DNA from: Sphaerolaimus hirsutus
Lineage: Eukaryota > Nematoda > Chromadorea > Monhysterida > Sphaerolaimidae
DNA: 64,000 nt
Assembly: GCA_964036195.1 (NCBI GenBank)
Contig: OZ038451.1
Location: 24,445,927 to 24,509,926, forward strand
Direction: 5' to 3'
Part shown: one piece after another, positions 1,430-57,437 of the stretch
Layout: every line of letters begins with the position of its first letter
Position numbering within the stretch: the first letter of the stretch is position 1
Notes under the pieces: generated by a model
Told to the model about the DNA's origin: nothing
What the model saw: the letters and a program-made list of their open reading frames with translations, nothing else
The model's database searches: none
Made by a program: the position numbers and the translations under genes

Positions 1430-2376
1430 CATGAAACATACAAGCCCATGAAACATGTTGTATCATTCATTACACATGCCCATGCGCCCATGAAACAGTT
1501 TGTATCTTTACACATGCCCATGCGCCCATGAAACATGCCGGTGTGCCCATGAAACACACATGGTGGCAATCCCAAGCCCTGTAAAGTGTAAAGTAAAGTG
1601 TCAAATGTAAAGTCAAATGCAAAGTAAAGTGTCAAATGTAAAGTCAAATGCAAAGTAAAGTGTCAAATGTAAAGTCAAATGCAAAGTAAAGTGTCAATTG
1701 TCATGCAAAGTTCAGTAATAAAATATTTTCTTTTTTGTTTTGATTGACACTTTACTTTGCATTTGACTTTACATTTGACACTTTACTTTACACTTTACAG
1801 GGCTTGGGATTGCCCCATGCATGTGGTGTTATACCAATGTATGTGGGCATGTTACATCTACGTATTTCTTCTGTGGATATAATGAACCATTTTCAACGCT
1901 GTTAGTTAAGCGTGCACGAGCAAAAATTGTTAGATTGTGTAAATTGTGTCAAAATTAGTTGATTCAAAAACCTGTATGCATTCATTAGTTAATTGTGCAT
2001 GATTTCAATTGCAAGTGCAATTCCTCCTCTTGGATAATCTGCCCCCCCAAAGAAAGTCTGACAAAAAAATAGTTTTTCCCCTTCATAAATTCCCCCTCAT
2101 ATAGTTCCTCAAAAAGTATCTAGGTATGATGTTTATACACTTAAAACCTTATATCACTGTTGAAAATTTAAGACAAAATACAATGTTGAATTATGGTTAA
2201 AATGAGTAATCTACTCTAATTTTCAGTACACACATTGCAGCACTTATACATTGCTATAACACCGCGTGCGTGTATGTTTCATGGGCGCATGGGCATGTGT
2301 AAAGATACAAACTTTTTCATGGGCGCATAGGCATGTGTAAAGATACAACATGTTTCATGGGCTTGTATGTTTCATG
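1430..2376. mobile_element. Foldback with CATGAAAC arms enclosing another foldback
   Basis: The arm at 1430-1556 (repeated CCCATGAAACA and TTTACACATGCCCATGCG) is the inverted complement of 2277-2376. The interval contains the TGTAAA foldback at 1563-1819 and a C-rich stretch near 2028-2110 resembling a decayed CCCC-type MITE. No gene is seen. A further outer inverted pair, CCTCTAGCTCCACCC at 2386-2400 and its complement at 2751-2766, suggests a second element beside it. Confidence 0.6.
1563..1819 (+). mobile_element. TGTAAAATGTC foldback (introner-like family)
   Basis: Begins GTGGCAATCCCAAGCCCTG and ends CAGGGCTTGGGATTGCCCC. Between these lie arms built from TGTAAAGTGTCAAATG and its complement, separated by a short AT-rich loop. 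The ends match the copies at 3523-3655, 18738-18910 and 45947-46145. Read on the plus strand it starts with GT, as the intron copies do, but no flanking coding exon is recognised here. Confidence 0.6.
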
Positions 2377-3522: not shown

Positions 3523-3655
3523 CAGGGGGGCAGCCCCAAGCCCTGTTAAATGTCAATTGCCATGCAAAGTTCAATAATATTTTTTTGTTTTGTTTGATAC
3601 TTTACATGACATTTGACAATTGATTTTACAATTTTACAGGGCTTGGGACTGCCAC
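3523..3655 (-). mobile_element. Introner-like TGTAAA foldback
   Basis: On the minus strand it starts GTGGCAGTCCCAAGCCCTG directly after a GGGCAG exon end, and finishes GGGGCTGCCCCCCTG. The arms are TGTAAAAT, TGTCAA and their complements. The start is a good donor, but the 3' end reads TG where related copies have AG, so splicing here may be lost or use another acceptor. Confidence 0.55.
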
Positions 3656-6305: not shown

Positions 6306-7022
6306 GGTGCCGGTTCCGCAAGTGGACAAGTTAAGAGTTAAAAGTTAAGAGTTGAGTAAAAAGACAAATGGCGAGTTAAGAGTAAAGTTAAAGTTTAAGA
6401 GAAAAGTTAAAGTTTAAGAGAAAAGTTAAAATTTAAGAGAAAAGTTAAAAGTTGAGTTAAAGGTTAAGAGTTGAGTTAAGGGTTAAAAGTTGTGTTAAGA
6501 GTTAAAAGTTGAGTTAAGAGTTGAGTTAAGAGTTAAGAGACAAGTGGAAAATGAAGGTAAAAAAATATAAAAAAATAAAAATATGAAATTGGTATCGATA
6601 CGGCTGTTCGCTGGCATGGTGCCAATGTTGTATGCACGTCATTTGAAAATAACGTATCCAAAAAAATTATCGCTAAAAAAAGAAAAAATCGCCGAACGTT
6701 GTTTCGAAATGGCCGTGCGGGGACAAAATATCATTGAAGATCAGCGTATGGCGCTTTTGCAACGAATGACCCATTTGTCTTTTAAATCAACTTTTAACTC
6801 ATCTTTTAACCTTTAACTCAACTCTTAACATTTAACTCAACTTTTAACATTTAACTCAACTTTTAACCTTTAACTCAACTCTTAACTTTTAACTCAACTT
6901 TTGACTCAACTTTTAACCTTTAACTCAACTCTTAACTTTTAACTCAACTTTTGACTCAACTTTTAACCTTTAACTCAACTCTTAACTTTTAACTCTTAAC
7001 TTGTCTACTTGCGGAACTGGCC
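6306..7022. mobile_element. GGTGCCGGTTCCGCAAGT foldback with TTAAGAGTTAAAAG arms
   Basis: The left end GGTGCCGGTTCCGCAAGTGG is inverted as CTACTTGCGGAACTGGCC at the right. The arms are long arrays of GTTAAGAGTTAAAA and its complement. The core carries a 77-codon frame (6583-6816) that I do not recognise. A second, partial element with the same end (GGTGCCAGTTCCGCAAAATG) starts directly after it and runs to about 7150. Relatives lie at 12850, 26368-26614 and 54207. Confidence 0.7.
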
Positions 7023-7189
7023 CCAGGTGCCAGTTCCGCAAAATGAGAAGTGAGAAGCGAAACGGCAAAGGCGAAGTAAAAGCGCAAAGGCGAAGTGAAA
7101 TGGCAAGTGAATTGGCAAGTGAAATGGCAAAAGCGAAGAGATATTACTTTTTATTTTCAAAGGGGTGTTTTTATCCCAGCTCGAAACCA

Positions 7190-7830: not shown

Positions 7831-9308
7831 CTAATGTGCATTTATGCACAGTATGGTTTTGTGCAAATTTTGTTTCGTGTTGAAAATGGCTCGCGAAGGC
7901 GTAACAAACTTGCTCCACTTGTGTTTAAAGCCGCTCTTGCTTTCGTCCATGCAGCAGTACCACTCGACCGGCTCGCGGTATTTTTTGCAGTCGTCGTCAT
8001 CTTCGCACTTCTTCCATACGCCTGCGTGTCGTTCAATCGTTCATAACGTTTATAACGTTGCCTCTTCGGTAACACGTACAAACGTTCCACTGCGAACCGA
8101 CCTCCAATATTGTTCCCATCAAAAATGGCGTCGTTCTCGTTCAGGATTTTCACGCAACGCCTCTTGCCGTAGCGTTCGGGCACGCACACCTCGTTTTTTT
8201 TGCACTCGTTGTTGCAGCGACCTGCGCGCGTTTGTAGGGTTCGCGCCTAAATGGCGCCGCGCACAAAAGTACACCACACCGCCGATAATTGGGCAACTCA
8301 TAAATCTGTTTTGCACACATTTGAGTTTACCAGAATGGGGAATCTGTCAACTGCTGTTGATGGCGAGGATTTTGGCGCCAAGCGCCAAAAGCGCCATGGC
8401 GCTTTTCCCAACTCCGGTGTTATGCTCCAATGGCGCCAAGCGCCAGAATCGCCATGGCGCTAATTGCTTTGGTGCTAGTGCCAAGCGCCAGCGCCAGGCG
8501 TTTTGTTCTTGGCGCCACACAAAAATAACGCAAAGCACCAAGAGCGCCATGGCGCTTTTCATAGGTGTAGCGCTAAGCGCCAATGGCGCCACGACAATAT
8601 AGCACCAAGGGCCAACGCCATGGCGCTTTTCCATCACTACTCATGGGATACATTAGTAAATACAAGCATGTCTACAAACCAAAGGTGACCAACTGGATGT
8701 GCATTTGTATTTTAGACCGGCTTTTCTTTCCTTCTTAGTGGATCTGCACTTCTCTCCCAATGGACACATGTTGTGGTCGCAAGGTTCTTTTTCTGATATC
8801 GGGATGGAATCGATTAGCTCGTTAACAATAAAAACAAGTATACTCGGCGGACTTCACACTTAGTATGGAAACCTACCATAACCCACCTGAAAAATGAACC
8901 AAAAATTTGACAGCTTTTTCATCATAAATATTTCGCTTTTACTATGGAATAATTAATCGCAAAATATATCACAAGATTTTACTCATTAAATTATGGTAGG
9001 ATTTTGCACATATATACTTTGCGGCCCGCCGAGCATACAAGCAAACTTACCGTGTGCAGCAAGGCACAGGTCATTCGGACAGGTGGCTTTTCCCACATAT
9101 CTGCACCTCCCTTCCGGCCTATGGATGCACCAGGCACTGTACTTACTGCACTTTTTGCCGCCGCAGGATCATGAAAAAAGTGATGCCGTTTTTTCGCGTT
9201 TTTTTACTGTGTGTTGATGGGGTAAAAATGAGACCGCGACCTACTGTAAGCGTCTGAAGGTGCTGCGAAAATTGCCAGTGCCAGCAGTGGAAGCAACGTT
9301 CGAAGCAT
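7831..9308 (-). CDS. Secreted cysteine-rich protein, four exons
   Basis: On the minus strand, exon 1 (9308 to about 9245) starts at an ATG and encodes a signal peptide, MLRTLLPLLALAIFAA followed by a small-residue cleavage region. Exon 2 ends at 9051 with a strong donor GTAAGT; its start is uncertain (about 9136 if acceptor TACAG is used). Exon 3 is 8221-8102 (acceptor GCGCAG, donor GTCGGT). Exon 4 is 8021-7831 and ends in TAG. Phases agree at both later junctions (1 and 1), with no internal stop. The product is roughly 160 residues and carries cysteine clusters such as CNNECKKNEVCV and WYCCMDE. No membrane segment follows the signal, so secretion is inferred. The family is not recognised; the spacing loosely recalls EB or colipase-like modules. 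A GGCGCC transposon lies in intron 2. Confidence 0.7.
8360..8639. mobile_element. GGCGCC word-repeat element in an intron
   Basis: GGCGCCAAGCGCCA array ending GGCGCTTTTCCATCACTA at 8639, the terminus of the TAGTGATG / GGCGCC family. The left terminus is not clear and the right flank CTCATGGG has no partner, so the left end may be deleted. It lies in the second intron of the cysteine-rich gene. Confidence 0.7.
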
Positions 9309-11125: not shown

Positions 11126-11333
11126 GATGAGCGACCGGCATTTAAACCTCGTTGTGAATTGCATTTGACCTTGCAGCTGCTTTGAAGAAATGTCACGTTC
11201 ACTCTGAGCATACCCGCTTCATTTCAGTACTCCCTCATTTCATAACGACCGATTAATATCGTAGCTAAGTACATAATAATGTACCACAATTAGTGGGGCG
11301 GTGCGTTTCGGAAGTTCGCGGACCGTCGATGTA

Positions 11334-11884
11334 CAGGGTGCGGCAATTTAGACCTGCGCTCTAGATTTCGATTAACTTGTCACTGGGTCGTCGGATTCAC
11401 TTCAAATTATAGGTCAACATTAAAAACTAAATAGGAAAGGATCCCTGAAAATATGGCTGCGATAGCTCCACTCGTTCTCAAGCTATTGATGCAAACACCA
11501 ATAATTGTTGCTTTACTACCACCTTGCTTTACAACCAATTACGCAAGCGTCATCTGCCGATTTCCTTATCGGTAAGGCGGATTAGTGGCGCGCGCACGCA
11601 TTTTGGCATGCCGCTGCGAAAAAAAGCGAGAAAAAAAAACAATCCCAATCCCGATCCGGGTCCCGAAAAGTGGATCCCGTTTGAAACCTATCACGGGGTG
11701 GTGGTAAAGTGACAATTATGCGTTTGCATGAATAACTTGAGAACGAGGTGAGCTATCGCAGCCATATTTTCAGGGATCTTTTCCTTTTTAGTTGTTAATG
11801 TTGACGTAAAATTTGACGTTAATCCGACAACCCAGTGACAAGTTATTCGAAATATAGAGCGCAGGTCTAAATTGCCGCACCCTG
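11334..11884. mobile_element. CAGGGTGCGGCAA foldback, TA-flanked
   Basis: CAGGGTGCGGCAATTTAGACC at the left is inverted at the right, and the arms stay complementary for about 170 bases each (CTGAAAATATGGCTGCGATAG is shared). TA flanks both sides, as in Tc1/mariner insertions. The core contains a CCCGATCCGGGTCCCG stretch but no transposase. Outside it, GGCGGTGCG near 11297 and its complement near 11925 suggest insertion into an older inverted repeat. Confidence 0.8.
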
Positions 11885-11968
11885 TATATGATAATATTTA
11901 TGTGCGAACTGTAAAAAAATGGCTCACAAAGCGCACCGCCTCCAACTATTTGTGATGCTAACAAAGTA

Positions 11969-12016
11969 CCGTATTACCTCCAATATAAGGTATAACTTGT
12001 ATTGGAGGTAATACGG
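11969..12016. mobile_element. 48-bp minimal TA-flanked hairpin
   Basis: CCGTATTACCTCCAATA and its inverted copy are separated by about 12 bases, with TA on both sides. It carries the terminal sequence of the CCCC-type MITE family with almost no interior. Confidence 0.8.
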
Positions 12017-12186
12017 TATTCCTGTTCAATATTATAAATACATACCTCAATAATTAATCCTGATTAAAAATTGCTTCTGATTACGTTCTGAGTGGTTGAC
12101 GCTATCTAGAATTTTTCCGCATCCAAAATTGATTCAGGAAGGCTAAATCCTCGGCATGCACCCCAAATGTCAATGTGCATGGGGGG

Positions 12187-12818
12187 TAGGGTTCAAACGG
12201 GATTGACTTTTCGGGATCGGGATCGGGATCGGGATTCACTTTTTGAGATTTCGGGATCGGGATCGGGATCGGGATTGGGGTTTCGGGATCGGGATCGGGA
12301 TCGGGATTGGTATTTTGAGATTTCGGGATCGGGATCGGGATCGGGATTGGGCGGGATTGGGGTCACGGGATCGGGATCGGGATCGGGATCGGGATTGGCA
12401 TTTTTTCGGGATCGGGATTGGGGTCTAGGGATAGAGATTTTTGTCACTGTTCTGGCATTCACAGTTGTTCATAAAGGTCTCAAAACACTGTTGGATGCCA
12501 GAAAAGTGACATAAAATGGACGCTGGGGGTTTGCGTTCACATTTTTGCATGCAAAAATGTCATTTTTTCACTTTTTATAATTTCCACTATTTTTTCCGGG
12601 ATCGGGATCCCGGACTTGGGAGATTCTCGGGATCGGGATCGGGATTTGAAAGTTTTCGGGATCGGGATCGGGATCGGGATTGGTATTTTTGGATTTCGGG
12701 ATCGGGAACGGGATCGGGATCGGGATTGGGTTTTCGGGATCGGGATCGGGATCGGGACTGCCAAATCCCGGAATTTCACGGGATCCGGGATCGGGATCGG
12801 GATCCCGTTTGAACCCTA
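12187..12818. mobile_element. TAGGGTTCAAACGGGAT hAT-like element (GGGATC words)
   Basis: Ends TAGGGTTCAAACGGGAT and ATCCCGTTTGAACCCTA, with the perfect 8-bp duplication ATGGGGGG at 12179-12186 and 12819-12826. Arms are near-pure GGGATC hexamer arrays. Their translations (Arg-Asp, Gly-Ile or Asp-Pro repeats) are not real proteins. Confidence 0.92.
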
Positions 12819-12849
12819 ATGGGGGGTCGGGCAATCGAGGCTGGAATGT

Positions 12850-13075
12850 GCGGTGCCCATTCCGCAAGTAGATAAGAGACGTAAATGTCAAGTGTATCGT
12901 GAAGTAAAAACGTAATGGCTCTGGCTCCAGGCGTAGAGCCCGTTTTTTGCACTCGCGCCATTTTTCCGTGGCGCTATTGGCGCTTGGCGCCGTGCCTATG
13001 AAAAGCGTCACGGTACTTTTGGTTATTTTGGCGCCGATTTTTGTAGATGTAGTAGATAGATGGCGCTTTCGGTTC
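12850..13075. repeat. GTGCCCATTCCGCAAGT end plus GGCGCC block
   Basis: Starts with a relative of the GGTGCCGGTTCCGCAAGT terminus, followed by AT-rich words and then a decayed GGCGCC array at 12950-13075. No matching opposite end. The stretch 13080-13800 holds no gene I can support; a short frame after CTACTTTACAG at 13120-13175 is too short to call. Confidence 0.5.
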
Positions 13076-13809
13076 GGGTGGAGACAAAACTTCTTATGAA
13101 TTTCGTGCCAAAAATTCCTGCATCTACTTTACAGCCTTACGGGCACGTCATCCACCCAGAGAACGCATTTCGATAGGGTCAAATTACTTTACTCGGCGCA
13201 CCGCAAAGTATGCGTCCAAAATTACCTATGTCTTCGTTGATAACGCGCAAGCAGGATACTTATGCACGCAGTTTCCAAAAAAGGAAAAAAATTCAAAAAG
13301 AAAAAGGTGGAGTCGCGTAAAAGAGACAAAAGTTTTCTTTCTGCAACATTTCTTCCTTCTTTTTTTGAACAATTTTTATTTTATAAACGATGACGTCATG
13401 ATGGAGTGTTTCCTTCCGAAAGATGCATAGCCTGCGGTCCACCGAGTAAATATATCAATGAACAATATGAATAAACTGAAGGTTGTTTGATGGAATTTCG
13501 ACAGGATCGACAGAGCACAGGTGCTAAAACGTACCCATTAACTTTTAATCGGAAAATGGTATGCTAAAGTACCGAGTGAATATGTTTACGTTTTCTCTGT
13601 ACCTGTACTTGTTTTTATGTACCATGTACCCACAAAATTTCGCTAAATGAATCGCATCTTACGCACCGATTTTTTGGCATAGAGCACTCGAGTCGAGAGC
13701 AAAACACTCTAAGTGGCATTTATATTCAAAACATAAACGGGCAGTGACGAAACTCTCCACACTTGGCGCTCTGCCAACAGTCCACAAGTTCCAACGTCCC
13801 CATCCAAGT

Positions 13810-16800
13810 TCACAACTCCCCGTGGAACCTATGCCTGTGTCCGTACTCCTCCACGGGCCACATGCACTCGCAGCCGCTCGGCACCGACTCCTTCGAGTGC
13901 GGCAGCCAGGCGACGTTTGTGCCGCGCGGCCGCCGACGCACTTGAATCGTGCTGTACACTTGCACGCAGTCGAACAGGCCCATGCCGCATTTCTGGGATG
14001 GGTGGGGGGGTGTTGGGGTTGGATTTTTGGAGTTGTGTGGCGATGGCAAAACATGATAATTTTTTTCTAGTTTTAAGTTTTTTTCTGACATAATTTGAAA
14101 TTTCATATTTTTGCTAAAAAATATTTATAAAATATTTTGTAGTCACCCCACCATCTAATCCAAAATGTGTTGATATTATGCGTGCAGCTACCGCACAGCA
14201 TAGTTGTTAAAACGTATTTACATTTACGTGAAAAATATTTATACTCGGGTACTGGGTAAATATGTTTCCCCTGAAACAAGTACCTATACAGAAAACGTAT
14301 TTTAAATAACTATGTAGTTTTTCACGGCATATCAGTGAAAAAATGGTGATAAAAGCTAAAAATAGGACATGTATACAGCCATAAATAGCTGAAAATAGGA
14401 ATAAGTGCTAGCTACTGTATATCCTTAAAAAACCCTTGAAAAACAGCCCCATGCAAAACACCCCCTGTTGGCCGGGTGAGGAAAAATAACAGCTGTTGAA
14501 TAACTCCCACTCTTAAATAACTCCCCCTCTGTGTATGTATTATGTGTATCCACAATGTGTATTTGAATTATTTGGATGCCAGCAATGAACACAAATTTAA
14601 CAAAAATATTCACTTTTACTTTTTCTGGGAAACAAAGTACAGGGGTGGTCATCTTCAGTTTCCGCTGAAAAAACATGATAGCTGAAGCTATCACAATGAA
14701 ATTTTAACACAAAACAGTAGACTCCATTGGACCCATATTCTGAAGTTTGCAACCCCAACGGCCACATTTTGGGTGAGTTGTGGAACACACAGTTTTTAGT
14801 GTAATTTTGTGACTTGGTGTCACCAGCTCTTGCTTGTTCTTCATTGAGGGGAAATGTTGAAAAAAGTTGTTTTTTTATAGATTCATTTCACTCAATACAA
14901 TCACAACACTTTACAGTTACAACAACTATCATTCGGTATATCCACCATACTTCTCCTCTCCAATGTCAAATTCAAATGGTTCTCGAATGACAGGAGAGCT
15001 TTCACTCTGATCTCAGTGCTCAACTCTTCGAATGACTCCTAAATGTCCTAAATCAACATGTCAACTGTGTCACATGTTGTCTTCTTGTTGTAGACAAGCT
15101 GCTTGACATGTCACACACAAGCAAGAGGTGATACCAAGTTACAAAATTACACTAAAAACTGTGTGTTCCACAACTCGCCCAAAATGTGGCCATTTGGGTT
15201 GCAAACTTCAGAATAGGTGTCCATGGGAGTCTACTCTATGGTGTTTAAATTTCACTGTGAGATCTCAACCGTAGCTCAAGCTATCGCGTTTTTCCAGCGG
15301 CAACTGAAGATGCCCACCCCTGTATTTTACTCACATCTTCTGAGTAAAGGTAAATAAAATTACTTTACGTTTTCTGTTCTCTGTTGGTGCGTGTAAAAAA
15401 TACTTTACGTTTACGTATACTTTGAAAACGTGTGCTACTTTTAACAACTCTGGTGCACAGGTGAGCCCGCATTACTGAATTCTGGGCTTACTCAATTTCA
15501 CAGTGTCATTTGGTAATCTCCCAAGTCACATTTTGCGTGGGTGTATGGAAACAATTTCGATGCAGATTTATGCAATGTCGCACATTTGCAGCTGTCTTTG
15601 TTTCAGCTGCCGAATTACGTGTCATGTTGGTGCAACAAAATGAGGTACGTATTTAAATACGTACCTTTGCCGCCAAAATTAGTTTTTCGGGCAAAATGGT
15701 TGTTTGTCATATTCCAGGTGGCCAACGAGAAGTTTGGCTTTAGGTATGAACACATCGTTTTGTGTTCCTTCTGAAAGAAATTACATTTTATGTTGCACCT
15801 TTATGTCTGACACTCCAGAAACACAACATCTAGTTCCTATATACGGTATTTCCTCGACATACCCCCGGCGGGGGGGGGGAGGTTCATTTTTTTCAGAGTG
15901 AGAATTTTGAGGGGGTTAAACGAGGATAGTCGAAGAAATGGTTATAAAATTGTGGAAATTTTTTTCTTCTAGAAAACGAAAAAAGTGACCCAAACGTCAC
16001 CCCGACCGCACTAACCCGGGGTCTCAAAAAGTCCGCCCAAGGCAGCAATCGATTCTGATCGTCCACCAAATGCTCGCACTTGATCTCGGTCATGAAAGGC
16101 GGGTCGAATTCGTAGGCGCGCGAGTTCAAATGGTGCGTGCTGCTCACAGAGCTGCACAGGTGCTCGTAGCGCCGTCGAGAGTTTGGTATCGATTGAAGCG
16201 GATCCACGATGGGGGAGGCTGTGGAAATGGGGGGGTGTAGCGTTGAATACGGACTGAAAGTTTAAGGTGAAAGATTTCCAAATAAATTTGATATACTCGG
16301 CGGACATCACACATAGGGTGTCAAATTTCCGTTTCCGTTTTCCGTTTCCGCCTTTCCGCAGGAAAATTTTTTACCTTTCCGTTTTCCGTTTTCCGGCAGC
16401 CGAAAATTTTTTACCTTTCCGTTTTCCGTTTTCCGGCAGCCGAAAAAATTTTACCTTTCCGTTTTCCGTTTTCCGGCAGCTGAAAATTTTTTACCTTTCC
16501 GTTTCCGTTTTTCCGGCCCATTTTTCCGTTTTCCGGCTGAAAAATTTTTACCTTTCCGTTTCCGTTTTACCAGGCCATTTTTCCATTTTCTGGCTCGATT
16601 TTCAGTTTTCTGGCATTTTGCCATTGTTTTTCCAATCTGTATTTATCTTCAATTGGCTCATCCCATTGTGTTGTTTTTGTCTCTTTGAGCAGCATTGACA
16701 ACTGGGATTTCAGGGTCAGTGAAACAGGTGCTGTGAACCCAATTGGGTCATATGCTGACACCAATAATTTATTCAAGTTTCGTCTGGTTGGTGTTGTGAT

Positions 16801-19111
16801 GCTGTCAATTTGCAATTTTGGTGTTGATATTGCCAGCATGTCTGTTCATTGATTTTATTTCATGCCCATTACTGCGACAATTTTATTCACCTTTGGACTC
16901 CTGTCATTTTCTGCTATTTCATTCATGACTGATCTGGAGTTTGACAGCCATTCCCTGATGTTCATAGAACATTGGTTAAATAAAGCTTTGACTTTGTAAT
17001 ATAGTTCTAAAGCTTCAACTCCATTCGTGACACTCATGATGAAGTTATCTATGTAAATGTTGTTTATTATCATCGCCAACTGGTTTCGTTCCCCTTCATT
17101 TTCTTCATATTCATTCATGTTGTTTATTGTCACATTTAAATGGTATTTTATGACTGCTCCCAAAATTGCTGGGCTGCAGACAAGTCCAAACAGTACACGT
17201 TTAAAACAAAGTACTATTAAGTTATTTTCAGTTACTGGTTTTGAGGCATCTTTCAGCCAGAAAAATTGTGTGTAGTCTCTAGCTTGGTCATGCAATCCTA
17301 TTTGCAAATATGCTTTTTCAATATCAGCAATTAATGCTATATTGCCTGCCCTGAACTGCAGGTGTAGGCCCTGTGCTAATGGTGTTGTAATTGGTCCTCT
17401 AAAAAGGCACTCGTTGAAACTGGGCTTACCTGCTGACCCATCGTACACAATTCTGCATGATGTCGATTTGCCCGGCGTGATTACTGGCTGGTGTGGCAAA
17501 TAATGAATCCCCTTGTTGTCTGTTTTGTCGTCACAGATCTCAATTATTCCCTTTTCTAGTTGGTTGTCCAAAACTTTCCGGTATTGTTCGAATAAGTTTG
17601 GATCTTTGTTGAATCTTCATATCAGTGATTTAAACTGCACCAAGGCTTCTGCTTTTCCCGTGGGCAGGTCACTGATACTCTCTTTATACGGCCAGTCAAT
17701 ATAGTATCATTTGTTGTTGTTGTTGAATTTTATGCTATTTATTATCATCTCCTCTGCAATGTTGTCATCAATTGCATAGGGGTCATCAGTGATTACCACT
17801 TCTTCTAGACTGTGAAATTGTCATAGTGTTTCCTTTCCTATGGCCACTATGGCTACTTTTTGATGATTTTTTGTTGGTTCAGTTAAGCTTGAACTACAAG
17901 TGAAGTTACAGGCATGATCCATAGTTGCAGAATGAACAGCTACCACAATCAAAGCCAAACAGGCAAACCTGCATGCAGGTTTTCCTTCTGCAAATTTGTA
18001 TATTACCGTGCTAATTTCACTTTATTTTTTTCCGTTTCCGTGAAAATTTTGCTTTCTGTTTTCCGTTTTCCGGCATTTCATTTTTCCGTTTTCCGTTTTC
18101 CGGCCGACATTTTTTTTTTACCTTTCCGTTTTCCGTTTTCCGCTGAGTGAAATTTTTTACCTTTCCGTTTTCCGTTTTCCGGCAGAAATTTTTTTTTTAC
18201 CTTTCCGTTTTCCATTTTCCGTAAAGTGAAAAAATTTTACCTTTCCGTTTTCCGTAAAAAAAATTTTTTGACACCCTAATCACACATAAATAGTATGGAT
18301 CCTACCTACCATAACCCATCTGAATAATCAACCAAAATTATACAGTTTTTCATCACAATATTTAGTATTCACTATGGAATGATTAAATTCGGAATTTATC
18401 GCACGATTTTATTCATTAAATTACGGTAGAATTCTGCGCATGCTTTGCGGTCCTAAACCTAAATGTGTTTTTTTTGGCATTTTGAGTCCTGAAGACGGCC
18501 GTTTTCGTTGACAAGTTTATGTCGTTTTTCAAACATAGAACATAACCAGTTCCCAACTTTCATCGAGAAAAAAAACACAAAATTGAAATAATGCGAGTTG
18601 ACCGCGCGCAACCGACAAAGTGCCGCAACTCTGCTCGTTGTCGGTGTGGGCAGCGTGGGCGTGGTCTGCGGACGCAGCGCGGCAGTAACTCGCAAGTCTG
18701 CGTCGGTGGCGTCGCCGGGCCGCTGCAACGAGTCGTCCTGGGGGCAGTCCCAGACCCTGTAAAATGCCCTGTAAAGTGTAAAATGTCATGCAAAGTGTCA
18801 AAAGTTGTCAAAACTGTGTTGCCATTTTGCAGGGCATTTTACATGACTTTTGACACTTTGCATGACATTTTACATTTTACAGAGCATTTGACAGGGTCCG
18901 GGACTGGCACCTGCCGTCGATGCCACCGGTCGCGTCCGTGGTGCCGCAATCGGTGGACTGGTTCGGTTTTCTTTCCGGGCTCCGACAGCTCGTCGTAATG
19001 GGCGGAGATGGCCGCGTCGCGGTCGATCGGCGCCCCGCTGCAGTTCCAGTCGGACACGCTCGCCAGTGTGCAGCATAGGACAGTCATGACCTGCGCGGTG
19101 TTTGAGTGCCA
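13810..19111 (-). CDS. Candidate secreted cystine-knot factor, four exons
   Basis: On the minus strand, exon A (19111-18911) contains an ATG at 19087, a short hydrophobic start and a basic HRR end. Exon B begins at 18737 and continues in phase 0 to about 18590; its donor is unresolved. Exon C is 16218-16016 (acceptor TTTCCACAG, donor GTTAGT). Exon D is 13992-13810 (acceptor CATCCCAG, stop TGA). C and D join in phase 0. The C-D region has cysteines in EHLCSS, EIKCEH, KCGMGLFDC and VPSGCECMWP, with an aromatic/basic strand VQVYSTIQVRRR before the last CEC. This recalls trunk/PTTH-like or IL-17-like cystine-knot ligands, an assignment from memory of pattern only. Whether A-B belong to the same gene as C-D is inference. 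Introns hold transposons. Confidence 0.5.
14199..15452. mobile_element. CAGAGTTG-type hAT-like element in an intron
   Basis: Ends CATAGTTGTTAAAACG and CTTTTAACAACTCTG, with imperfect 8-bp flanks CCGCACAG (14191-14198) and GTGCACAG (15453-15460), 6 of 8 matching. Arms use TTTACGTTTTC and GTAAATAC words. It encloses the CAGGGGTGG foldback 14640-15322 and a decayed CCCC-type stretch at 14413-14540. Confidence 0.8.
14640..15322. mobile_element. CAGGGGTGGGCATCTTCAGT foldback, TA-flanked
   Basis: The terminal sequence is inverted at the right end and the arms are complementary for about 200 bases (for example GTGTAATTTTGTGACTTGG and its complement near 15145). TA flanks both sides. A second copy is at 49225-49784. 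No transposase; the core is an AT-rich unique stretch. Confidence 0.85.
15842..15940. mobile_element. Short CCCC-type MITE
   Basis: CGGTATTTCCTCGACATACCCCC at the left and GGGGGTTAAACGAGGATAGTCG with GAAGAAATGG at the right form a short imperfect inverted repeat of the TA MITE family. Confidence 0.6.
16314..18278. mobile_element. TAGGGTGTC hAT-like element carrying BEL/Pao sequence
   Basis: Ends TAGGGTGTCAAATTTCC and TTGACACCCTA, with the perfect 8-bp duplication ATCACACA at 16306-16313 and 18279-18286. Word arms of CCGTTTTCCG occupy 16320-16620 and 18000-18270. Between them is about 1.3 kb of BEL/Pao reverse-transcriptase sequence on the minus strand. The same borders occur in 10225-10776 and 1-1185, so the capture preceded transposition. 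Confidence 0.9.
16600..17710 (-). pseudogene. BEL/Pao retrotransposon reverse-transcriptase fragment
   Basis: Read leftward, the frame from 17571 carries hallmarks of BEL/Pao polymerases: a HYLPHQPVI block, CRIVYDGSAG, an FNECLFRGP block, ADIEKAYLQI and a catalytic box reading YIDN where YVDD is usual. Downstream, 16839-16600 holds the conserved SAYDPIGFTAPV block. Upstream (17572-17710) the similarity continues but with a stop. A stop near 16855 splits the frame. Gag, protease, RNase H and integrase are absent, and the fragment sits between the word arms of a hAT-like element. It is a dead passenger, not a complete retroelement. Confidence 0.85.
18738..18910 (-). mobile_element. Introner-like foldback, exactly an intron
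   Basis: On the minus strand it starts GTGCCAGTCCCGGACCCTG and ends CAGGGTCTGGGACTGCCCCCAG, so the element's own inverted ends supply donor GT and acceptor AG. Arms are TGTAAAATGTCATGCAAAG and its complement around a short loop. The flanking exons (ending CGGCAG, starting GACGAC) are GC-rich and open in phase 0 across the junction. Confidence 0.7.
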
Positions 19112-19121
19112 CTGTGGTTAA

Positions 19122-19224
19122 GAACCTGTGAAATGCCCTGTAAACTGGTAAATGTCATGCAAGTTTACAAACGTGACTTTTGGCACTTTGCATGACATTT
19201 TACATTCCATTTTACAGAGTCTGG
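19122..19224. mobile_element. TGTAAA foldback, decayed copy
   Basis: AACCTGTGAAATGCCCTGTAAA at the left and TTTTACAGAGTCTGGGGG at the right flank GTCATGCAAGTTTAC and its near-complement. It lies just upstream of exon A of the minus-strand gene; the CACAG at its edge could serve as that exon's acceptor. Confidence 0.6.
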
Positions 19225-19708
19225 GGGAGTGTCCCCAGTCCAGTGTAAAGTGCCTATCACCTTTGTTCGGCATTGGTTCAGTTTGACGGTCAAACTTTGA
19301 CCTACCTGAAACCGCATATCATATTGTATTGAAAACTTTTTTGTTCAGGTACGCGCCCTCCAGCAACAATTTGTATTACTCATTGATATAAAGTTCTGAA
19401 TTTAGCGTTGTAGAATAATAAATGATTTGTGTGAAGCATTATTCACATCTCATCTTTACTCCATTAACAATCAAAATATTCTGCGCATTCGGGAGCTCTT
19501 TCAAATGGCGCGGTATGCTATTGAATGAATAAAGTTACGTAGCCAAGCCTGTGAAAACGGGGGCATTTGACGCGCGTTTGTTTGTATAAATAGACGACGA
19601 CATTTTATTTTCATCTGAGTCGTAGGCGGATAATTAGGCATTGTGCGGTTCCTCCAGATGAACCCAGTCTCACAGTTAGCGTTCCAAAAAGCTTATATTT
19701 TTTAAATA

Positions 19709-19855
19709 CCGCATTTCCTAGAATTACCCCCGGGGGGTTTATTTGGGGGTATTTCGAGGGGGGGAGGTGTATAAACGGGTTTCATTGTGTCCATTTTGAG
19801 GGGGTATTTCGGGGGAGGGGGTATTCCGAGAGGGAGGTATTTCGAGGAAATACGG
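19709..19855. mobile_element. Short CCCC-type MITE
   Basis: CCGCATTTCCTAGAATTACCCCC at the left, TTTCGAGGAAATACGG at the right, TA on both sides. The G-rich body is TTTCGGGGGAGGGGG words. An AT-rich stretch with a TATTTATATTTT character separates it from the next MITE. Confidence 0.8.
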
Positions 19856-20054
19856 TAAAAGAAAATATACAAAAATGTATACCGTATTTACTTATATTTT
19901 ATCCATGTTTTTCTGGTGAAATATAATTATATTTTTATACGAGAAGAAGGTATAAAAAATCTCTCATTTATATTTGTTTATATTTTTTTCTGAATTTTTT
20001 CAGAGAAATTTGATTACCTGGTATATATTTTTTTTGGGAGTTTCTCAGAGATTA

Positions 20055-20550
20055 CCATATTTACTCGAAATACCCCCAGGGGGTTTATTTTTGGAAATTT
20101 GTGGAAATTTTAAGAGGGGTATTTCGAGGGGGGGCTTATTCGAAGGGGGGGTATTATTTCGCCAGACATTTTCGTACATATTGTAGTAAAGAATGGGCTT
20201 TTACATACCCAAAACTGGTAATAAACGTCACCAAACGGGACATATCAGAGCATTCAAACGTAGACAGCCATACAAACTACTCAATGTATAGCAGCGATGA
20301 GATTTGTCCCCAATAAATACATCATGTACATTGTATACATGATGTATTTCATTTAAGATGGGGGGTATTTCGTGGTGGGGGTTCAATTATTCCTCAGCTC
20401 GAAAACACCTGGGGGTATTTCGAGGGGGGTTAGTTCAAGGGGGGTATTTCGAGGGGGGTTAGTTCAAGGGGGGTATTTCGAGGGGGGTTAGTTCAAGGGG
20501 GGTATTTCGAGGGGGATTAGTTCAAGGGGGGTTATTTCGAGGAAATACGG
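20055..20550. mobile_element. CCCC-type MITE, second core type
   Basis: CCATATTTACTCGAAATACCCCC at the left and TTTCGAGGAAATACGG at the right, TA-flanked. Its core (TACCCAAAACTGGTAATAAACG to ACATCATGTACATTGTATAC) matches 23750-23900, a core different from the 4281-4700 type. The right part holds four tandem GGGGGTTAGTTCAAGG units. Confidence 0.85.
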
Positions 20551-21033
20551 TATATTTATCATTATTAAATTTACTGAAAACACATTTTTGCAACGCTATT
20601 CACAGTTCACACCGAATAAAGCGGCCATTTTCTAAAACGCTCACTTCCCCGGCGCTGCCGCGCGACGGCCAGGTATAAGGCGCATATGAGCGGCGACAAT
20701 CCTTCACACTGGTAATGCGGCAATGGCACCGGAGTCCACCAGCGGAGCTGAATGGATCGGGGGCAAAACTGCGTGATGCTTTGGTTACGCTATTCTTGGC
20801 GGCGTATTGATGAATGACTTCTCATTTCCTTAAATGCATTATGCGTAGATATGCCGTCGGCATTTTGGTACTCTTTATTGAAATGGAACTTTTAGGTTGG
20901 TATTTATTTACTAGACAAGTGAGATTTGGTGTGTGTGGGATGCGGTTTTCAGTATAAATACGTAAACTGGCTATTTACTGTTAAGGACTTTGCCGACGCA
21001 GCGTGTCAGCCCCTAATACTGAAGAGCCCAGCC
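20551..21033. other. No gene seen
   Basis: AT-rich with a short GC patch near 20650-20720. No open frame, repeat family or RNA was recognised before the tRNA-like gene. Confidence 0.6.
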
Positions 21034-30859: not shown

Positions 30860-32214
30860 CATATGGGAGGTGGAAGTGAATACTTTCATTTCAAGGCGGC
30901 CATGACGAATTGCCGCTTCTCAAGCGGGCCGCCGGCTGAGCTGTGGTAAGCATTGAAAAAATCATCAATTTTTGTGAAATATAATTAAAATCAGAAAATC
31001 TCTCAAGAATAAAATATACCTAATTAAATCTCTCTCAAAAATACCTGAAAAAAATATAAATAAATAAATATCAGTATTTGAGAGATTTTCTGAGATTTTT
31101 AAAAATATAAGAAAATCCCTCCAATTCTGATATTTATATTTTTTCTACGTTTTTGGGAGAGATTTAGTTATATATTTTTCTTGAGATATTTTCTGTGATT
31201 ATATTTTCCAAAAGTTGACGATTTTTTTCAATGCTAGCTGTGGTGTTTCTGGCGATGGCAAACAAACGTTTTCGAATTTTTATCCCACCATGAGAAAGAA
31301 ACACACTTTCGATTTTTCAAATCCATTTTTTTCTCTAGAAAAATACCGAAAAATCGAAAATTCAAACGAATTTTCGACGTTTTTGTGTAATATTTTTGGT
31401 ATAAAGTCGATAAAAATTTGAAAACTAAATTTGAAAACGTTATTTCGAAAAATTATTTAAGAAAAAAACACTTAAAAATTTAAGCACCTTTTCCAGAGGG
31501 TTTACCATCATTAAGCGTCTCTCATCGCTGCTTGCCGGTTGCTGTCTTACAGCGAATCAGTCGGGTACTGGCTTCATTCGCACCCATTTGTTGTTATCAA
31601 GCCGTCGTTGAGCTGGTACCACTCGCAGACCCTGTAAAAGACCCTGTGAAATGTAATGCGTCATGTAGAAGACCCTGTAAAATGGCATGACCCTGTAAAG
31701 TGTCAAATGTCAAGTAAAAAGCCTGTAATGTGTCATGTGTATCCAAATCTTATGTTATTGTATCCAAATCGTTTTATAATATTTGGATACAAAAGCATAA
31801 GATTTGGATCTGATAAAATAAGATTTGGATACGATAAAATAAGATTTGGATACACATGACACTTTACAGGGTCGTTTATATGACGTTTGAAACGTTACAG
31901 GGTCTTTTACATGACACATAACATTTTACAGGGTCTTTAACATGACACAACACATTTTACAGGAGTCATTTACACTTTACAGGGTCTTTTACATGACACA
32001 ACACATTTTACAGGAGTCATTTACACTTTACAGGGTCTTTTACAGGGTCTGGGTGTGTCCCGGGCCATGGAATTTTCGTTTTGCAATGCAATTATTTTAA
32101 ATGAATTAAAACAGCTTTTCTATCGCCGCGAAGCACGAGCGGCACATTCGTTCGCGTGGGCACCACAACCGAATAGGCTTTATTTTATTGCGTTTGGTTG
32201 AGTTGATTACGTGA
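30860..32214 (+). CDS. Candidate three-exon gene, unknown product
   Basis: Exon 1 (ATG at 30860 or 30902) ends at 30945 before donor GTAAGC, in phase 2. Exon 2 is 31553-31615 (acceptor TGTCTTACAG, donor GTACCA) and keeps phase 2 on both sides with the frame ESVGYWLHSHPF. A possible last exon, 32115-32214 (acceptor AAAACAG), continues in phase 2 to a TGA. The three fragments are GC-richer than their AT-rich surroundings. The product would be about 80 residues with no recognisable domain. Intron 1 holds an AT-rich foldback and a TTCGAA fragment; intron 2 begins with the TGTAAA introner-like element. The last exon is the weakest part. Confidence 0.4.
30950..31235. repeat. AT-rich foldback in intron
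   Basis: AGCATTGAAAAAATCATCAA near 30950 is inverted as TTGACGATTTTTTTCAATGCT near 31215. The arms carry AGAAAATCTCTC words and complements. Immediately after it, 31250-31515 is a TTCGAA-word fragment starting GGCGATGGCAAAC and ending TTTACCATCATTA, a decayed TAACGATGG relative. Confidence 0.65.
31616..32060 (+). mobile_element. TGTAAA foldback at exon border
   Basis: Starts GTACCACTCGCAGACCCTG directly after exon 2 of the candidate gene and ends CAGGGTCTGGGTGTGTCCC. Arms are repeated GACCCTGTAAAAT units. The centre contains a secondary palindromic array of TTGGATAC / AAGATTTGG words, also seen at 35960-36115. There is no AG at its right end, so splicing would need an acceptor further on. 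Confidence 0.65.
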
Positions 32215-37349: not shown

Positions 37350-38514
37350 CAGGGTTGGCAAAGTATCAGGAAAAAATAAATAAATGTAAAATTGAAGAAT
37401 AAAATAAAATAACATGAAATATGAATAAAATAAAACTAAAGTACAATTTTACTACAATTTTAGTAAAAATAATTTTACTAAAACCAATCCTGGTCACAAA
37501 CTAAAAAAATATATAAAAATATTCAAGAAAAAAATTAAACATGAATAAAATTAATATAAAATGCAATTTTTATACAATTTAACTACGATTTAAGTAAAAA
37601 GAATTTCACTAAAACCAACCTAAAATTCGGCTATTTACACAGGTCCCTGGCAAAAAATATAATTGTTCAAAAGTCTATAATTGGCATGTATTGGTTGTTT
37701 GCATGTGAATTAGGTGAATTATCACCAAATTAACATGTTCAAAATTTTTGCAAGACAATAACACGCGCTGATGAATTTTCTTTGGGGGAGTGTATAATTT
37801 TTAGTGGATTTTTCTGAATTTTGGCATGTGTTTACTCCTTCATTTAGTGAGTACGCATGCCAAATTTCAGCTCAGCGCGGTTACCGGTTCTTATTTTATT
37901 GATACTTTAATATTTGTCGATCACTGTATTTTTGTATAGTGATCCAAATCCTGCCAGGGACCGACATCCGTGAATTTTGGTCCCCGACTGGGGACGTTCA
38001 TCCCTGGCAGGGGACTAAAAATTTGTCCCCTGCCGGGGACAAAGGTCCCCTGTCGGGGACCAAAATTCTTTGTTTACTGAAGAAAAAAAATTTTTCTCAC
38101 CAGGGACATTTGACCCGGGTCGGGGCCATTTCGACATTGCCTGGGACCGGTCCCCAGCAGGATTTCGATCACTATACAAAAATACAGTGATCGATGAAAA
38201 TTAAAGTGTAAATAAAATAGGATTCACTAATCGCCCTTAGCTGAAATTTGGCATGCGAACTCACTAAGTGAAGGAGTACACGCATGCCAAATTTGAGCCA
38301 AATCAAAATAAATTTACACACACCCCAAAAAAATATGCATGGGTGTGTGTAACCATGTTGCAGAAATTTAGTGCATGCAAATTAGGTGTTAATTAACCTA
38401 ATTTATATGCAATCAACCCATGGCCATACACACCAATTACTGACTTTTGACAATTTTAATTTTTTGCCGGGGCCTGTGTAAATAGCCCTAAAATTCACAT
38501 GAATTCCAACCCTG
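37350..38514. mobile_element. CAGGGTTGG hAT-like element, second copy
   Basis: Ends CAGGGTTGGCAAAGTATC and GAATTCCAACCCTG, with the perfect 8-bp duplication CTGCTGAC at 37342-37349 and 38515-38522. It shares ends and AATAAAATTTTAC words with 35440-36497 but carries a different core. Confidence 0.92.
37625..38500. mobile_element. Large foldback with GGGGAC core
   Basis: GGCTATTTACACAGG near 37629 is inverted as CCTGTGTAAATAGCCC near 38472. The inner arms at 37828-37945 and 38150-38290 are complementary (ATCACTGTATTTTTGTATAG). The centre 37950-38160 is an array of GGGGACAAAGGTCCCC words in both orientations. Confidence 0.75.
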
Positions 38515-41098: not shown

Positions 41099-41390
41099 CT
41101 GAAGAATGGACAAAATGTATCAATATTTATATTGATATTGGTGCTTAGTGTAATATTTATCAACAATTTTCAATAAAGCTGTACAATACAAAGCAAAACT
41201 GACTTTGTCGAGGTTTGGCTGCCAACGACCCACTAAAGCATGGGTTACTGCATATAAAATTAACCATTTTCTAAAAACAGCCCAAGTGTCCCAAAACAAG
41301 TTCATCACCCAACTGCATTAAAAAAATGTTGCAACAACATACCTAATATAAAAATGAATCGGGTTGGAACACTATGTCAGCCAAAAAAAT

Positions 41391-41828
41391 TTTTTTCAGT
41401 AGGGCACCCACCCTGTCTCAGTAACAGCCGACTGAAAATTTCACTTTAAACCAATTTTTTGTATCACAATTAAAAAGTTGGTTTACAAAGTTCACTAGGG
41501 GAGGGTCTAAGGTTCAAAGTTATGTAAACAACATAACCTCTAAAATGCTTCCATAAGGAAATTTACTTCGGGTGAATTCTATGATGTCAAAATGATGTCA
41601 TTTCAGGAAGAAAATTTGACAAAATTTTCACTTTTTCATTCACCCCAAATAAATTTCCTTATGGAAGCATTTTAGAGGTTATGTTGTTTACATAACTTTG
41701 AACCTTAGACCCTCCCCTAGTGAACTTTGTAAACCAACTTTTTAAGTGTGATACAACAAATTGGTTTAAAGTGAAAATTTCAATCTGCTGTTTATGGGAC
41801 AGGGTGGGTGCCCTACTGAGAAAATTTT
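41391..41828. mobile_element. CAGTAGGGCACCCACCCTGTC foldback
   Basis: The arms match as inverted complements for roughly 190 bases each (for example CCATAAGGAAATTTACTTCG and its near-complement at 41645). No target duplication was recognised. It lies upstream of the transposase exons, where the missing N-terminal coding sequence would be. Confidence 0.8.
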
Positions 41829-42386
41829 AATGAGCAGAAGTAGGGTTCATATCTGATTAAATTTTATATCAGGTATGTTCTCACAACATTTTTTTATAAT
41901 GCAGTTGGGTGGCAAACTTGTTTGGGACACTTGGGTTGTTCTTAAAAAAATTATCAAATTTATATGCAGCGACCCATGCTTTAGTGGGTCGTTGGCAGCC
42001 GCCCCACTGGTGGATTGTGAAGGGGGTTGTTGGCAAGACATCCCCCAAATTTCAGCTTTCTACTGCCCTCACAGCTGGAGATATAGCCTTCAAAGTGTAG
42101 CTAATCTAGTGGGTGGTGAACTTGCTTGGGACACCAAAAACGCCACAAATTTTTTTTGCATATAGGGTGACCCACCCTGTAGTGAGTCGCCGCACCTCCC
42201 CCCATTGTTGGGGAGTAAGGGGGTCTTACAACTTAATATATACAAAGTTTCACCCTTATAACACCCCCATGGACGGAGATATTGCATTCGAAGTGAAATA
42301 AAAAAATGGGTGGTGAACTTGTCCGGGAAGGTGTTTATTTAGCATTCCGTTGGGCGCACGAACAGCACTGGTAGACTTACTGTAGA

Positions 42387-44823: not shown

Positions 44824-46850
44824 TTACTCCCCCCAGTGGCCGGTGCTCATGGTGATGAGCACGTACTCGAAGACCACTGGGGCCAGATTTAATTCTCCCT
44901 ACAGATTTGTAGGGTAGGGCGTACGCCCGATAGATTTTTTCAAGTTCAGCCGCATCGACGCACATGCACCGAGAGCAAGGCGGTTTGTAAAATACCGTAT
45001 TACCTCGAATTATCCCCCCTTGAATTAACCACCCCTCGAAATACCCCCCTAAATTTCGGCTGAGGAAAAAATAACCCCCCCCCTCGAAATACCCCCCCCC
45101 CCTAAAATTGAGTGTAACGTGAACGTACATGACAAATACCGCAGTTTGTGATCTGTACAATGCAGAACACACGTTAAAACTGATGATTAAGTGACGTTAG
45201 GGAAGGGTTTTTGTGTATACACAGTAATATTTATATGCCTATAAACACATATAAATCTATGTGATTGGTCGATTTTTCTACATCTGCGTATGGGGAATTT
45301 CCGATAATTTCTGGCGAAACAATAGACCCCCCCCCCCCCTCGAATAAACCCCCCCCTCAATTTATCCCCCCTCAAATGTTGCTGGCGAAATAATAAACCC
45401 CCTGGGGGTATTTCGAGGTAATACGGTATACGAAACCATCCCTTAAGGTCGCCGATATTGCAATATGACGTATATCACTTCGATTTTGGCACGGAAATCA
45501 TGATTTCGTCATTTCTTGGCCGTCTGCCAATTCGTTTTTATTTTATTTTGTCGAGCGGGTTACTCGTATAAGTCGCGCTTTTGTGTAGTCAGGTGGTCAG
45601 TCTTTTTTAGTGTTCACTGTCTGCAACCGAAACCATGAGGGCAGCGACAAGAAAGAAATGCATGCACAAGCGTACAAAAGCGCGACTTATGCGAGTAACC
45701 CGCCCGACAAAATAAAATAAAAAGCGAATTGGCAGACGGCCAAGAAATGACGAATAGTGATTTCCGGGCCAAAATCGAAGCGATATACGTCATATTGTAA
45801 TATCGGCGACCTTAAGGGATGGTTTCGTATATTTTACAAACCGCCTTGCTCTCGGTGCATGTGCGTCGATGCGGTGAACTTTAAATAATCTATCGGGCGT
45901 ACGCCCTACCCTACAAAACTGTAGGGAGAATTAAATCTGGCCCCAGGGGGCACTCCCAGACCCTGTAAAATGTCAACTGTCATGCAAATTGTCAAAAGTC
46001 ATGTAAAATGCCTCGTCATGTAAAGTGTCAAGTCAGGTAAAAACGAGTTTGCCATTTTGCAGGTCATGTTACATAAATTTTGACACTTTGCATAACATTT
46101 GACATTTTACAGGGCATTTTACTAGGCCCGGGAGTGACGTGGCACCGGCCTTCCCCTTGCCTCCGTTTTCAAGCCGTTCTTTTTCAATCAGCCACGCGCA
46201 CTTTAGCATCGTCTTCAAAATGACGTGCGTAGTAACGAGCGCCGGTGCCCCGACCAAGCAGGCGGCCGCTGCGGCGGCGGCATGAAACGATGGAAAACAA
46301 AAATTCGAAAATGTTTTCTAAATTTTCAAATTTTTGAGTTTTCGAATTTTTATTTCACCCCTATAAATACACCTAAAATCGATTTGTTCTACAAAAATTT
46401 AAATTTGAAACGTTTTCGATTTTTTTGACAATTTTTGGCGGAAAATGTGTATAAAATGCGAAACTCAATTCAAAATATAAATTTTACACTAGGTGTTTCA
46501 TTTGTAGCGGCAGAACACAAAATCTGTCCGGGGTAACAGGCTGTAAAACATGTTAGTGTTATCAAAATTCGCCAGAAAAATTCGAAAATGCAGTAATTGG
46601 ATGCAAAAAATTGAAAAGTCCTAAAAAGATTCATAAATTTGAAAATTAATGAAAACATTCAGAAATTTGAAAATTCGAAAACTAATTTCGAAAATTCGCA
46701 AACTATACTTGGAAAAAATTTGAAATTCGAAAAGTCGTTCAAGAAAAAACACTTCAAAATTTCAATACTTTTTTCTAGAGTGTTTGCCATCGTTGGCGGC
46801 ACTGCGGCACACTGCGGCGTCAAGTGGCCGCCGTCGCGGCACACGCTCAA
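44824..46850 (-). CDS. Candidate small gene with composite introner-like intron
   Basis: On the minus strand the frame starts after acceptor ATCACCAG at 46850, is interrupted by the hAT-like element 46284-46794, and continues 46283-46146 through an alanine-rich hydrophobic stretch and HVILKTMLKCAWLIEKERLE. It ends at a donor-like GTGCCACGTCAC in phase 1. After a 1269-bp intron ending GGCCCCAG, exon 44876-44824 continues in phase 1 with VVFEYVLITMSTGHWGE and a TAA. Phases agree. The alanine-rich segment could be a signal anchor. Family not recognised. The exonic transposon argues that this allele may be non-functional or that the first exon is wrongly assigned. Confidence 0.4.
44881..45943. 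mobile_element. Foldback with GGCCAGATTTAATTC arms
   Basis: The left arm GGCCAGATTTAATTCTCCC to CGGGTTACTCGTATAAG is inverted at 45640-45943. The arms match over about 240 bases once the MITE 44995-45426 is removed from the left one. The central 40-60 bases form the loop. It sits inside the intron of the minus-strand candidate gene. Confidence 0.85.
44995..45426. mobile_element. CCCC-type MITE nested in a foldback arm
   Basis: CCGTATTACCTCGAATTATCC and TTTCGAGGTAATACGG ends, TA on both sides. The uninterrupted opposite arm at 45825-45842 (complement GTAAAATATACGAAACC) shows the empty site, again giving a TA duplication. Confidence 0.93.
45947..46145 (-). mobile_element. Introner-like TGTAAA foldback
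   Basis: On the minus strand it starts GTGCCACGTCACTCCCGGG right after a coding end and finishes GGTCTGGGAGTGCCCCC, directly against the GGCCAGATTTAATTC foldback. Arms are TGTAAAATGTCAA and complements. With the neighbouring foldback it fills the whole intron. Confidence 0.65.
46284..46794. mobile_element. AACGATGG hAT-like element (TTCGAA words)
   Basis: Ends GAAACGATGGAAAAC and GTTTGCCATCGTT, flanked by GGCGGCAT (46276-46283) and GGCGGCAC (46795-46802), 7 of 8 identical. Arms are AAATTCGAAAATT arrays. It lies within a GC-rich, coding-like segment. Confidence 0.8.
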
Positions 46851-48110: not shown

Positions 48111-48115
48111 ACCTA

Positions 48116-48386
48116 CCGTATTACCTCGAATAATCCCCCCTTGAATTAACCCCCCCCCCCCCTCGAATTAACCTTCCCTCAAAATGGGCTGGGGAAATAA
48201 TAACCCCCCCCCCTCGAAATACCCCCCCCCCCTTCGGAATGATGTACATGATGTACATCATTCCGAAGGGGGGGGGGGGGTATTTCGAGGGGGGGGGGTT
48301 ATTATTTCCCCAGCCCATTTTGAGGGAAGGTTAATTCGAGGGGGGGGGGGGTTAATTCAAGGGGGGGATAATTCGAGGTAATACGG
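48116..48386. mobile_element. Near-perfect 271-bp palindromic MITE
   Basis: CCGTATTACCTCGAATAATCC at the left is mirrored at the right, TA on both sides. The two halves are almost exact complements to the central GATGTACATGATGTACATC (centre about 48250), with essentially no loop. Confidence 0.92.
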
Positions 48387-48396
48387 TATAGGTATA

Positions 48397-57435: not shown

Positions 57436-57437
57436 GT

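Follow-up and report, generated by a model that had tools for sequence, protein, structure and literature searches.

The foldback element and its surroundings

At 18738-18910 the window, i.e., the whole stretch of 64,000 nucleotides that was analysed, holds a near-complete foldback with arms that are 86% complementary and which on the minus strand reads CAG-GTGCCAGTCCC...GGGACTGCCCC-CAG-GACG (Table 1). The coordinates and the donor/acceptor reading of this copy given in the first-pass annotation are confirmed by the minus-strand sequence and the foldback arms, whereby the statement that its termini contain both a donor GT and an acceptor AG holds for the GT but not for the AG, which is a target-site copy and located outside of the element. 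The copy had further been described as separating two GC-rich open exons in phase 0. Its flanks are GC-rich indeed (0.65 and 0.71 over 80 nt, in a window of 40% GC) and open in the joined phase-0 frame of the minus strand, but this openness is weak evidence alone, as open frames number five out of six on the downstream and two out of six on the upstream side, and about 11% of the shuffles likewise keep the two flanks open in this phase. When trained on other loci, a codon model placed both sides of the window copy (L001) in the same frame and strand with low scores, and no relatives of the flanking peptides were found in Pfam. Considering the family to which it belongs, the window copy is likely spliced.

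Three further copies had been annotated as beginning exactly where coding frames or, for the plus-strand copy at 31616, an exon end, which proved not to be the case. The first (3523-3655) reads CAG-GTGGCAG...GCCCCC-CTG on the minus strand and has no flush AG, the second (45947-46145) reads CCG-GTGCCA...GCCCC-CTG and abuts the foldback 44874-45949, not an exon, and the third, which reads CTG-GTACCACTC..., is degenerate at its far end; three-frame translations of both strands showed no coding evidence for the flanks of the three. Foldbacks with other ends are abundant in the window (41319-41896, 37690-38421, 49240-49773, 11329-11889, 14686-15265 and 48114-48388), and a TCGGGA word array at 12198-12764, the right end of which is TTGGCAGTCCC, possibly represents another family with the same terminal motif. 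The remnant of a BEL/Pao retrotransposon (reverse transcriptase, with Peptidase_A17 nearby), which points to an animal genome, lies at 16855-17571 on the minus strand, and a Gypsy-type element with PNMA-like gag, RNase H and integrase occupies 57411-63982 on the plus strand; its 667-aa frame has 57 database matches, all at most 35% identical. A six-frame Pfam search of 12001-21000 returned nothing beyond the BEL/Pao remnants, an Rfam search a tRNA as sole match, and a scan of viral contigs did not find the element core.

Table 1. Coordinates of the foldback element, its putative exons and its relatives within the window
Feature	Position	Strand	Basis or detail
Foldback element proper (probable introner)	18741..18910	-	GTGCCAGTCCC...GGGACTGCCCC, 170 nt, 0 mismatches to both 11-nt ends
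3' CAG of the target-site duplication, putative 3' splice site	18738..18740	-	sequence; triplets agree in 57/61 genomic-order copies
5' CAG of the target-site duplication, final exonic codon ahead of the donor GT	18911..18913	-	sequence
Left arm of the foldback	18740..18816	.	arm complementarity
Right arm of the foldback	18835..18911	.	arm complementarity
Putative upstream exon	18911..19101	-	GC by codon position 0.65/0.52/0.81; open frame; codon model
Putative downstream exon, in frame with the upstream one once spliced	18604..18737	-	inferred; open frame, codon model
Diverged copy, flanks CAG/CTG, not exon-flush	3527..3655	-	arms, ends, family alignment
Diverged copy, apparent 5-nt insertion in end, flanks CCG/CTG, abuts other foldback	45947..46145	-	
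Partial relative of the family, some 20 nt 5' of the putative upstream exon	19121..19235	+	
Relative, 71-nt arms 100% complementary, ATG both sides, nested in other foldback	1563..1816	+	
Sister family, like termini (GTGCCGGTTCCGC...), different arm words, CAG both sides	6307..7023	+	
Diverged relative, CTG-GTACCACTC..., 3' end degenerate	31616..32060	+	

The genome-wide family and its target site

A genome-wide search for such elements, as advised in the first-pass annotation, was carried out on the assembly of 348,482,957 bases in 762 contigs to which the window belongs. The DNA search with the element revealed 2277 first-look candidates, 40 of which were scored (hereafter the 40 best copies), and exact 5' ends were found 772 times for CAG plus 20 nt and 655 times for CTG plus the same 20 nt, meaning that CTG, not CAG, precedes 655 of the 1,427 exact 5' ends counted. 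Exact 3' ends (20 nt of the 3' end followed by CAG) amounted to 961, and the reversed-pattern controls gave 0 for each of these counts. In the samples, copies with family ends vary in their interior and length (roughly 110-430 nt); they show the traits of foldback/MITE elements, namely long inverted arms, internal word repeats and no coding capacity, next to the transposon hallmarks of terminal repeats and a 3-bp CWG duplication.

The target was derived from the triplets left and right of the copies sampled in genomic order from contig C1, which are CAG/CAG in 40, CAG/CTG in 2, CTG/CAG in 2 and CTG/CTG in 17 cases, reading with a few nucleotides of slippage and leaving five copies (CAG/TAG 2, CAG/CCC 2, CTG/TAG 1) out of the two-by-two test. 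Left and right triplet thus agree in 57 of 61 copies (Fisher p = 5e-11), which documents a 3-bp CWG target duplication; a 4-bp duplication (CAGG, CATG) fitted some window copies and was dismissed, as the genome sample is fitted by the 3-bp CWG and not by it. Among the 46 copies with CAG to their left, 44 end in AG within a few nucleotides of flush, while 17 of the 20 with CTG to their left also end in CTG. As judged from these triplets, the element itself brings only the GT, and an AG, where there is one, comes from the duplicated CAG of the target, so that GT..AG splicing would restore the empty site.

As to the composition of the samples, L018 and L024 have no clean 5' end and were left out of the family alignment and the codon test while being kept in the triplet listing of the 40 best copies, L036 and L054 (near copies of, or identical to, L030 and L033) are likewise absent from the codon test, and L044, L057 and L060, which have no recognisable 3' end, stand outside the set of 46. 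Within that set L077, L081 and L082 were kept despite 5-6 mismatches at their 3' ends; for L034 and L080 the acceptor was placed at the AG one nucleotide past the flush position.

Several observations concern the diversity of the family. A sister family with GTGCCAGTTCCGC-type ends is flanked by CTG/CTG in three of the four locus copies for which both ends were found, and by CAG/CAG at 6307-7023 of the window. Copy L047 (435 nt including CAG) carries, nested inside the introner, a second element with GTGGCAGTCCCAAG ends, an arrangement resembling a twintron. Four pairs of near-identical loci (L108/L110, L050/L051, L081/L082 and L107/L111), located about 16-204 kb apart, have the introner at the same place, and in one such pair its length differs (168 versus 196 nt). 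At C1:30745337-30745507 and C1:30980503-30980673 (G000) a GTGCC-type end is found on both sides, one next to CAG and the other next to CTG; these two symmetric places would be GT-first in either direction and were counted in both the CAG and the CTG totals.

Conserved proteins across the junctions

The case for introns rests on protein homology and not on ORF or codon statistics. From 108 distinct places that were fetched, the window's own included, 35 promising sense joins were picked by eye and tested, and with the element and one triplet removed, 11 of the 35 joined peptides gave a junction-spanning match to a fitting protein family, while the remaining 24 gave no countable one. Matches across copies ending in AG comprise a MEKK-like kinase (MAP3K2, 7.4e-44), a homeodomain (2.4e-22), Na,K-ATPase (4.3e-22), KIF21A (9.7e-13), a PDZ domain (1.2e-7), UCH (1.7e-7), the mannosyltransferase domain Glyco_transf_22 (1e-4) and MFS (3.5e-4), whereby the latter two lie below the curated Pfam cut-offs. 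The homeodomain is matched over positions 1-57 of 57, hence this introner resides inside a homeobox. The interrupted homeodomain looks Abd-B-like.

Copies ending in TG are spanned by matches to SLC4A11 and OSCP1. A Kv3-like channel also continues across its copy (L004), a case that is ambiguous because an in-frame AG follows 9 nt downstream, which is why it is no proof of TG use. Not counted as junction support were L078 (DnaJ-like) and L091 (tudor), for which the Pfam stretch lies on one side only, L016 (COesterase, E 0.011), as well as L014 (Peptidase_C33, E 0.0072) and L074 (DUF4715, E 0.0058), which span the junction below cut-off and look spurious. At locus L021 four copies lie in the same orientation within 3 kb, two of them bounding an open stretch of 60 codons. 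For SLC4A11 the comparison of proteins revealed that the orthologous protein runs uninterrupted through the position of the introner. On the basis of these alignments, such copies are located flush within coding exons of unrelated genes, and their removal would keep the protein. That the foldback is an intron of an introner-like family, as the first-pass annotation had proposed, is thus supported genome-wide by the copy number and by the coding domains that span the junctions.

Frame, base composition and orientation

Both flanks have a GC content of at least 0.5 in 28 of the 46 genomic-order CAG copies and in 28 of the 40 best copies, as compared to 18% of single 80-nt stretches of the window. 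At least one flank falls below 0.5 in the other 18 of the 46, so a share of the copies is probably non-coding. A codon model, trained on 845 codons from nine loci that are all GT-first, found frame and strand to agree between the two sides in 16 of 54 further copies versus 184 of 1000 random window sites, a modest excess, and 15 of these 16 concordant copies, to which the window copy belongs, are GT-first. The ORF-length test compared the true join with two shifted ones and was rejected as evidence, since GC-rich exons leave it too little power: among the 40 best copies, the true join came out ahead of both shifted ones in 7 and lost in 12 (p = 0.08 versus their mean), and among 27 genomic-order copies it came out ahead in 9 and lost in 4 (p = 0.04). 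In the same tests sense beat antisense, with p = 0.001 for the 40 best and 0.013 for the genomic-order copies.

Copies at CTG targets

The most detailed view on a CTG copy comes from SLC4A11 (L072), where the match (2.5e-64) crosses the junction without a gap and the residues found at this place in C. elegans (NVRETRLASLIAHV) and Plectus (TNVRETRLA) correspond exactly to a join at CTG^GCG. No in-frame AG is present from -70 to +60 of this copy, the last three exons of the gene are intact to the stop codon, and the two neighbouring introns are AG-ended; the next ordinary intron (minus strand, 8030-8080 and 8340-8460, reading AG-GCTAGC...TCAG) is apparently a GC-AG intron with a weak donor. The best matches to an exon of this gene are nematode proteins, with 77-81% identity among the first ten, and a tree of 177 residues places the sequence in Nematoda, outside Plectus and Rhabditida and apart from Trichinella, a placement that is tentative as it derives from one gene. 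The OSCP1 copy, flanked by CTG on both sides, likewise joins without a gap, 40 residues aligning to 40 profile positions (5.8e-17). The exact position of the CTG copies in these two genes implies non-AG splicing, and the boldest well-supported inference of this work is that copies of the CTG class are removed using a TG 3' end.

The orientation of the CTG sample is not clearly biased, with 11 of 20 copies scoring best in sense and 9 in antisense. Scores above 5 were obtained in sense for seven copies (L092, L096, L097, L102, L104 and the near-identical L108 and L110, i.e., six distinct ones) and in antisense for four (L100, L103, L105 and L109); copies lying in antisense would need GG..AG, and four antisense joins that were compared with Pfam gave no match. 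Within the 40 best copies, 9 of 18 with CTG to their left have CAG to their right, while the reverse was found in 0 of 13. This provides a weak hint that an AG may have been regained by mutation at CTG copies, weak because only 2 of 20 copies of the genomic-order sample show it.

Predicted hairpin and proposed mechanism

The minus-strand RNA of the window copy is predicted to fold with -103.9 kcal/mol, as compared to -40.1 for 200 shuffles (sd 4.0; z -15.9), into one hairpin of nearly full length, with the 5' GTGC and the 3' CCCCCAG remaining unpaired. Two internal motifs, TTTACAG and TTTTACAG, located 31 and 19 nt before the end, fall within the predicted stem; their use would add 31 or 19 nt and shift the frame. 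Open ends of the same kind (GTGC and seven 3' nucleotides) were predicted for 12 of 13 folded copies and for 12 of the 20 in the CTG-left sample.

In the proposed mechanism the element, the two ends of which are GTGCC and GCCCC, inserts at CWG and duplicates these 3 bp, as shown by the sequence of the insertion sites. Where a GT-first copy occupies a CAG target, its GT would open the intron and the second CAG would close it, so that splicing of CAG^GT...CAG^ would restore the message as it was before insertion. The transcript is predicted to form a single hairpin with GTGC and CCCCCAG free and the internal TTTTACAG buried, and this stem would bring the splice sites side by side and hide cryptic acceptors. 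Copies at CTG targets, ending in CCCCCTG, would be removed just as exactly, with the TG 3' end being tolerated, as suggested by the two conserved genes.

Alternative explanations

The reading considered best is that the family consists of introners, meaning non-autonomous, MITE-like foldbacks that become introns when landing in exons, whereby CTG copies would be removed too, and this is very probably correct. A plain foldback MITE that disrupts or avoids genes and stays unspliced could owe its GT..AG ends to chance, as a CAG target automatically yields them; besides, two relatives within the window (1563 and 45947) are nested in or adjacent to other foldbacks and the open flanks at 18738 say little taken alone. 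Yet, given that conserved domains run across the element in several unrelated genes and that the frame-concordant copies are almost all GT-first, this is highly improbable for the family. Some nematodes eliminate DNA, and programmed excision from somatic DNA, comparable to that of ciliate IESs, would by exact removal at a short direct repeat account for the copies of both target classes with no need of an AG rule and would fit the orientation of the CTG sample. However, such excision is indifferent to the direction of transcription, which the GT-first bias of the frame-concordant copies in the main samples is not, and the constant GT fits splicing, hence excision in place of RNA splicing is a very unlikely explanation.

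AG is the general rule, which the introns flanking the SLC4A11 copy obey, and it might be that the AG-ended copies alone are spliced, while CTG copies either reside in genes that are dead or duplicated or make use of an AG close by, such as the one downstream of the Kv3-like copy; the CTG-left copies with CAG to their right among the 40 best look as if AG had been regained. Against this, the SLC4A11 copy has no in-frame AG between -70 and +60 and is followed by intact final exons, OSCP1 is gapless across a CTG/CTG copy, and most genomic-order CTG-left copies are still CTG-ended, so that splicing restricted to AG is possible but rather doubtful. Going beyond the removal of both classes, hairpin introns may be defined by structure more than by GT-AG, one canonical dinucleotide being enough as the hairpin brings the ends together; the genome would then hold hundreds of GT-TG introns at CTG targets and perhaps GG-AG introns in reverse orientation, whereby transposition would set the 3' dinucleotide and a later T-to-A change in the 3' copy would yield GT-AG. 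To this extension we give an even chance.

Significance and comparison with known systems

Introners are strong evidence on the bulk origin of introns, and few cases come from animals. With copies numbering well above a thousand, including one within a homeobox, the present nematode offers a tractable animal setting. The CTG class tests whether an animal spliceosome can use a non-AG end when a hairpin joins the ends, and it bears on how new introns get tuned to GT-AG. Among the titles and abstract beginnings of the matching open-licence literature listed, none reports introners in a nematode, which does not prove their absence. No source sequences were reported for 168 new Caenorhabditis introns (PMC9169325).

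The introners described in PMC9860276 have 4-bp target-site duplications and terminal inverted repeats, take one splice site from the target and usually leave the mRNA length unchanged; within animals and land plants just two groups are stated to have them, and the word nematode is absent from the main text. The present family shares with them the signatures of non-autonomous DNA transposons and the principle that one splice site is carried while the other comes from the duplicated target, and it resembles the Chrysochromulina case of the same paper in carrying the 5' site and co-opting the 3' site. It differs in that the entire element is a foldback, that the target provides many copies with a 3' end other than AG and that the host is a nematode, as compared to the algae and tunicates cited for introners in the first-pass annotation. 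The introner elements of the protist Amoebophrya (PMC7789003) likewise possess hairpin-forming inverted repeats, direct repeats at their boundaries (3-5 nt) and many non-canonical ends, with more than 60% of all introns being non-canonical; their inverted repeats span 8-20 nt, whereas the present family has a fixed 5' GT, a CWG target and stems of nearly full length.

The ends of Euglena nonconventional introns are paired via CCAGG (+3 to +7) and CCTG (-9 to -6) (PMC11170887). In the present family CAG (+5 to +7) is paired with CTG (-10 to -8), and CCAG is found at +4 to +7, i.e., a pairing of the same kind that is shifted by one position and seen in predicted folding, from which no descent is claimed. 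The Euglena introns belong to euglenids and not to animals, and GT/AG is absent at one or both of their ends, hence the likeness may be one of convergence. An animal with many introns outside the GT/AG rule is Fritillaria (PMC13326754), a chordate with a duplicated U2AF, for which the available sections describe no foldback ends. TG as a 3' end is also known from human U2 introns (PMC2374985), where it was found at alternative sites in 36 genes, whereas in the present family the class is set by the target of the transposon.
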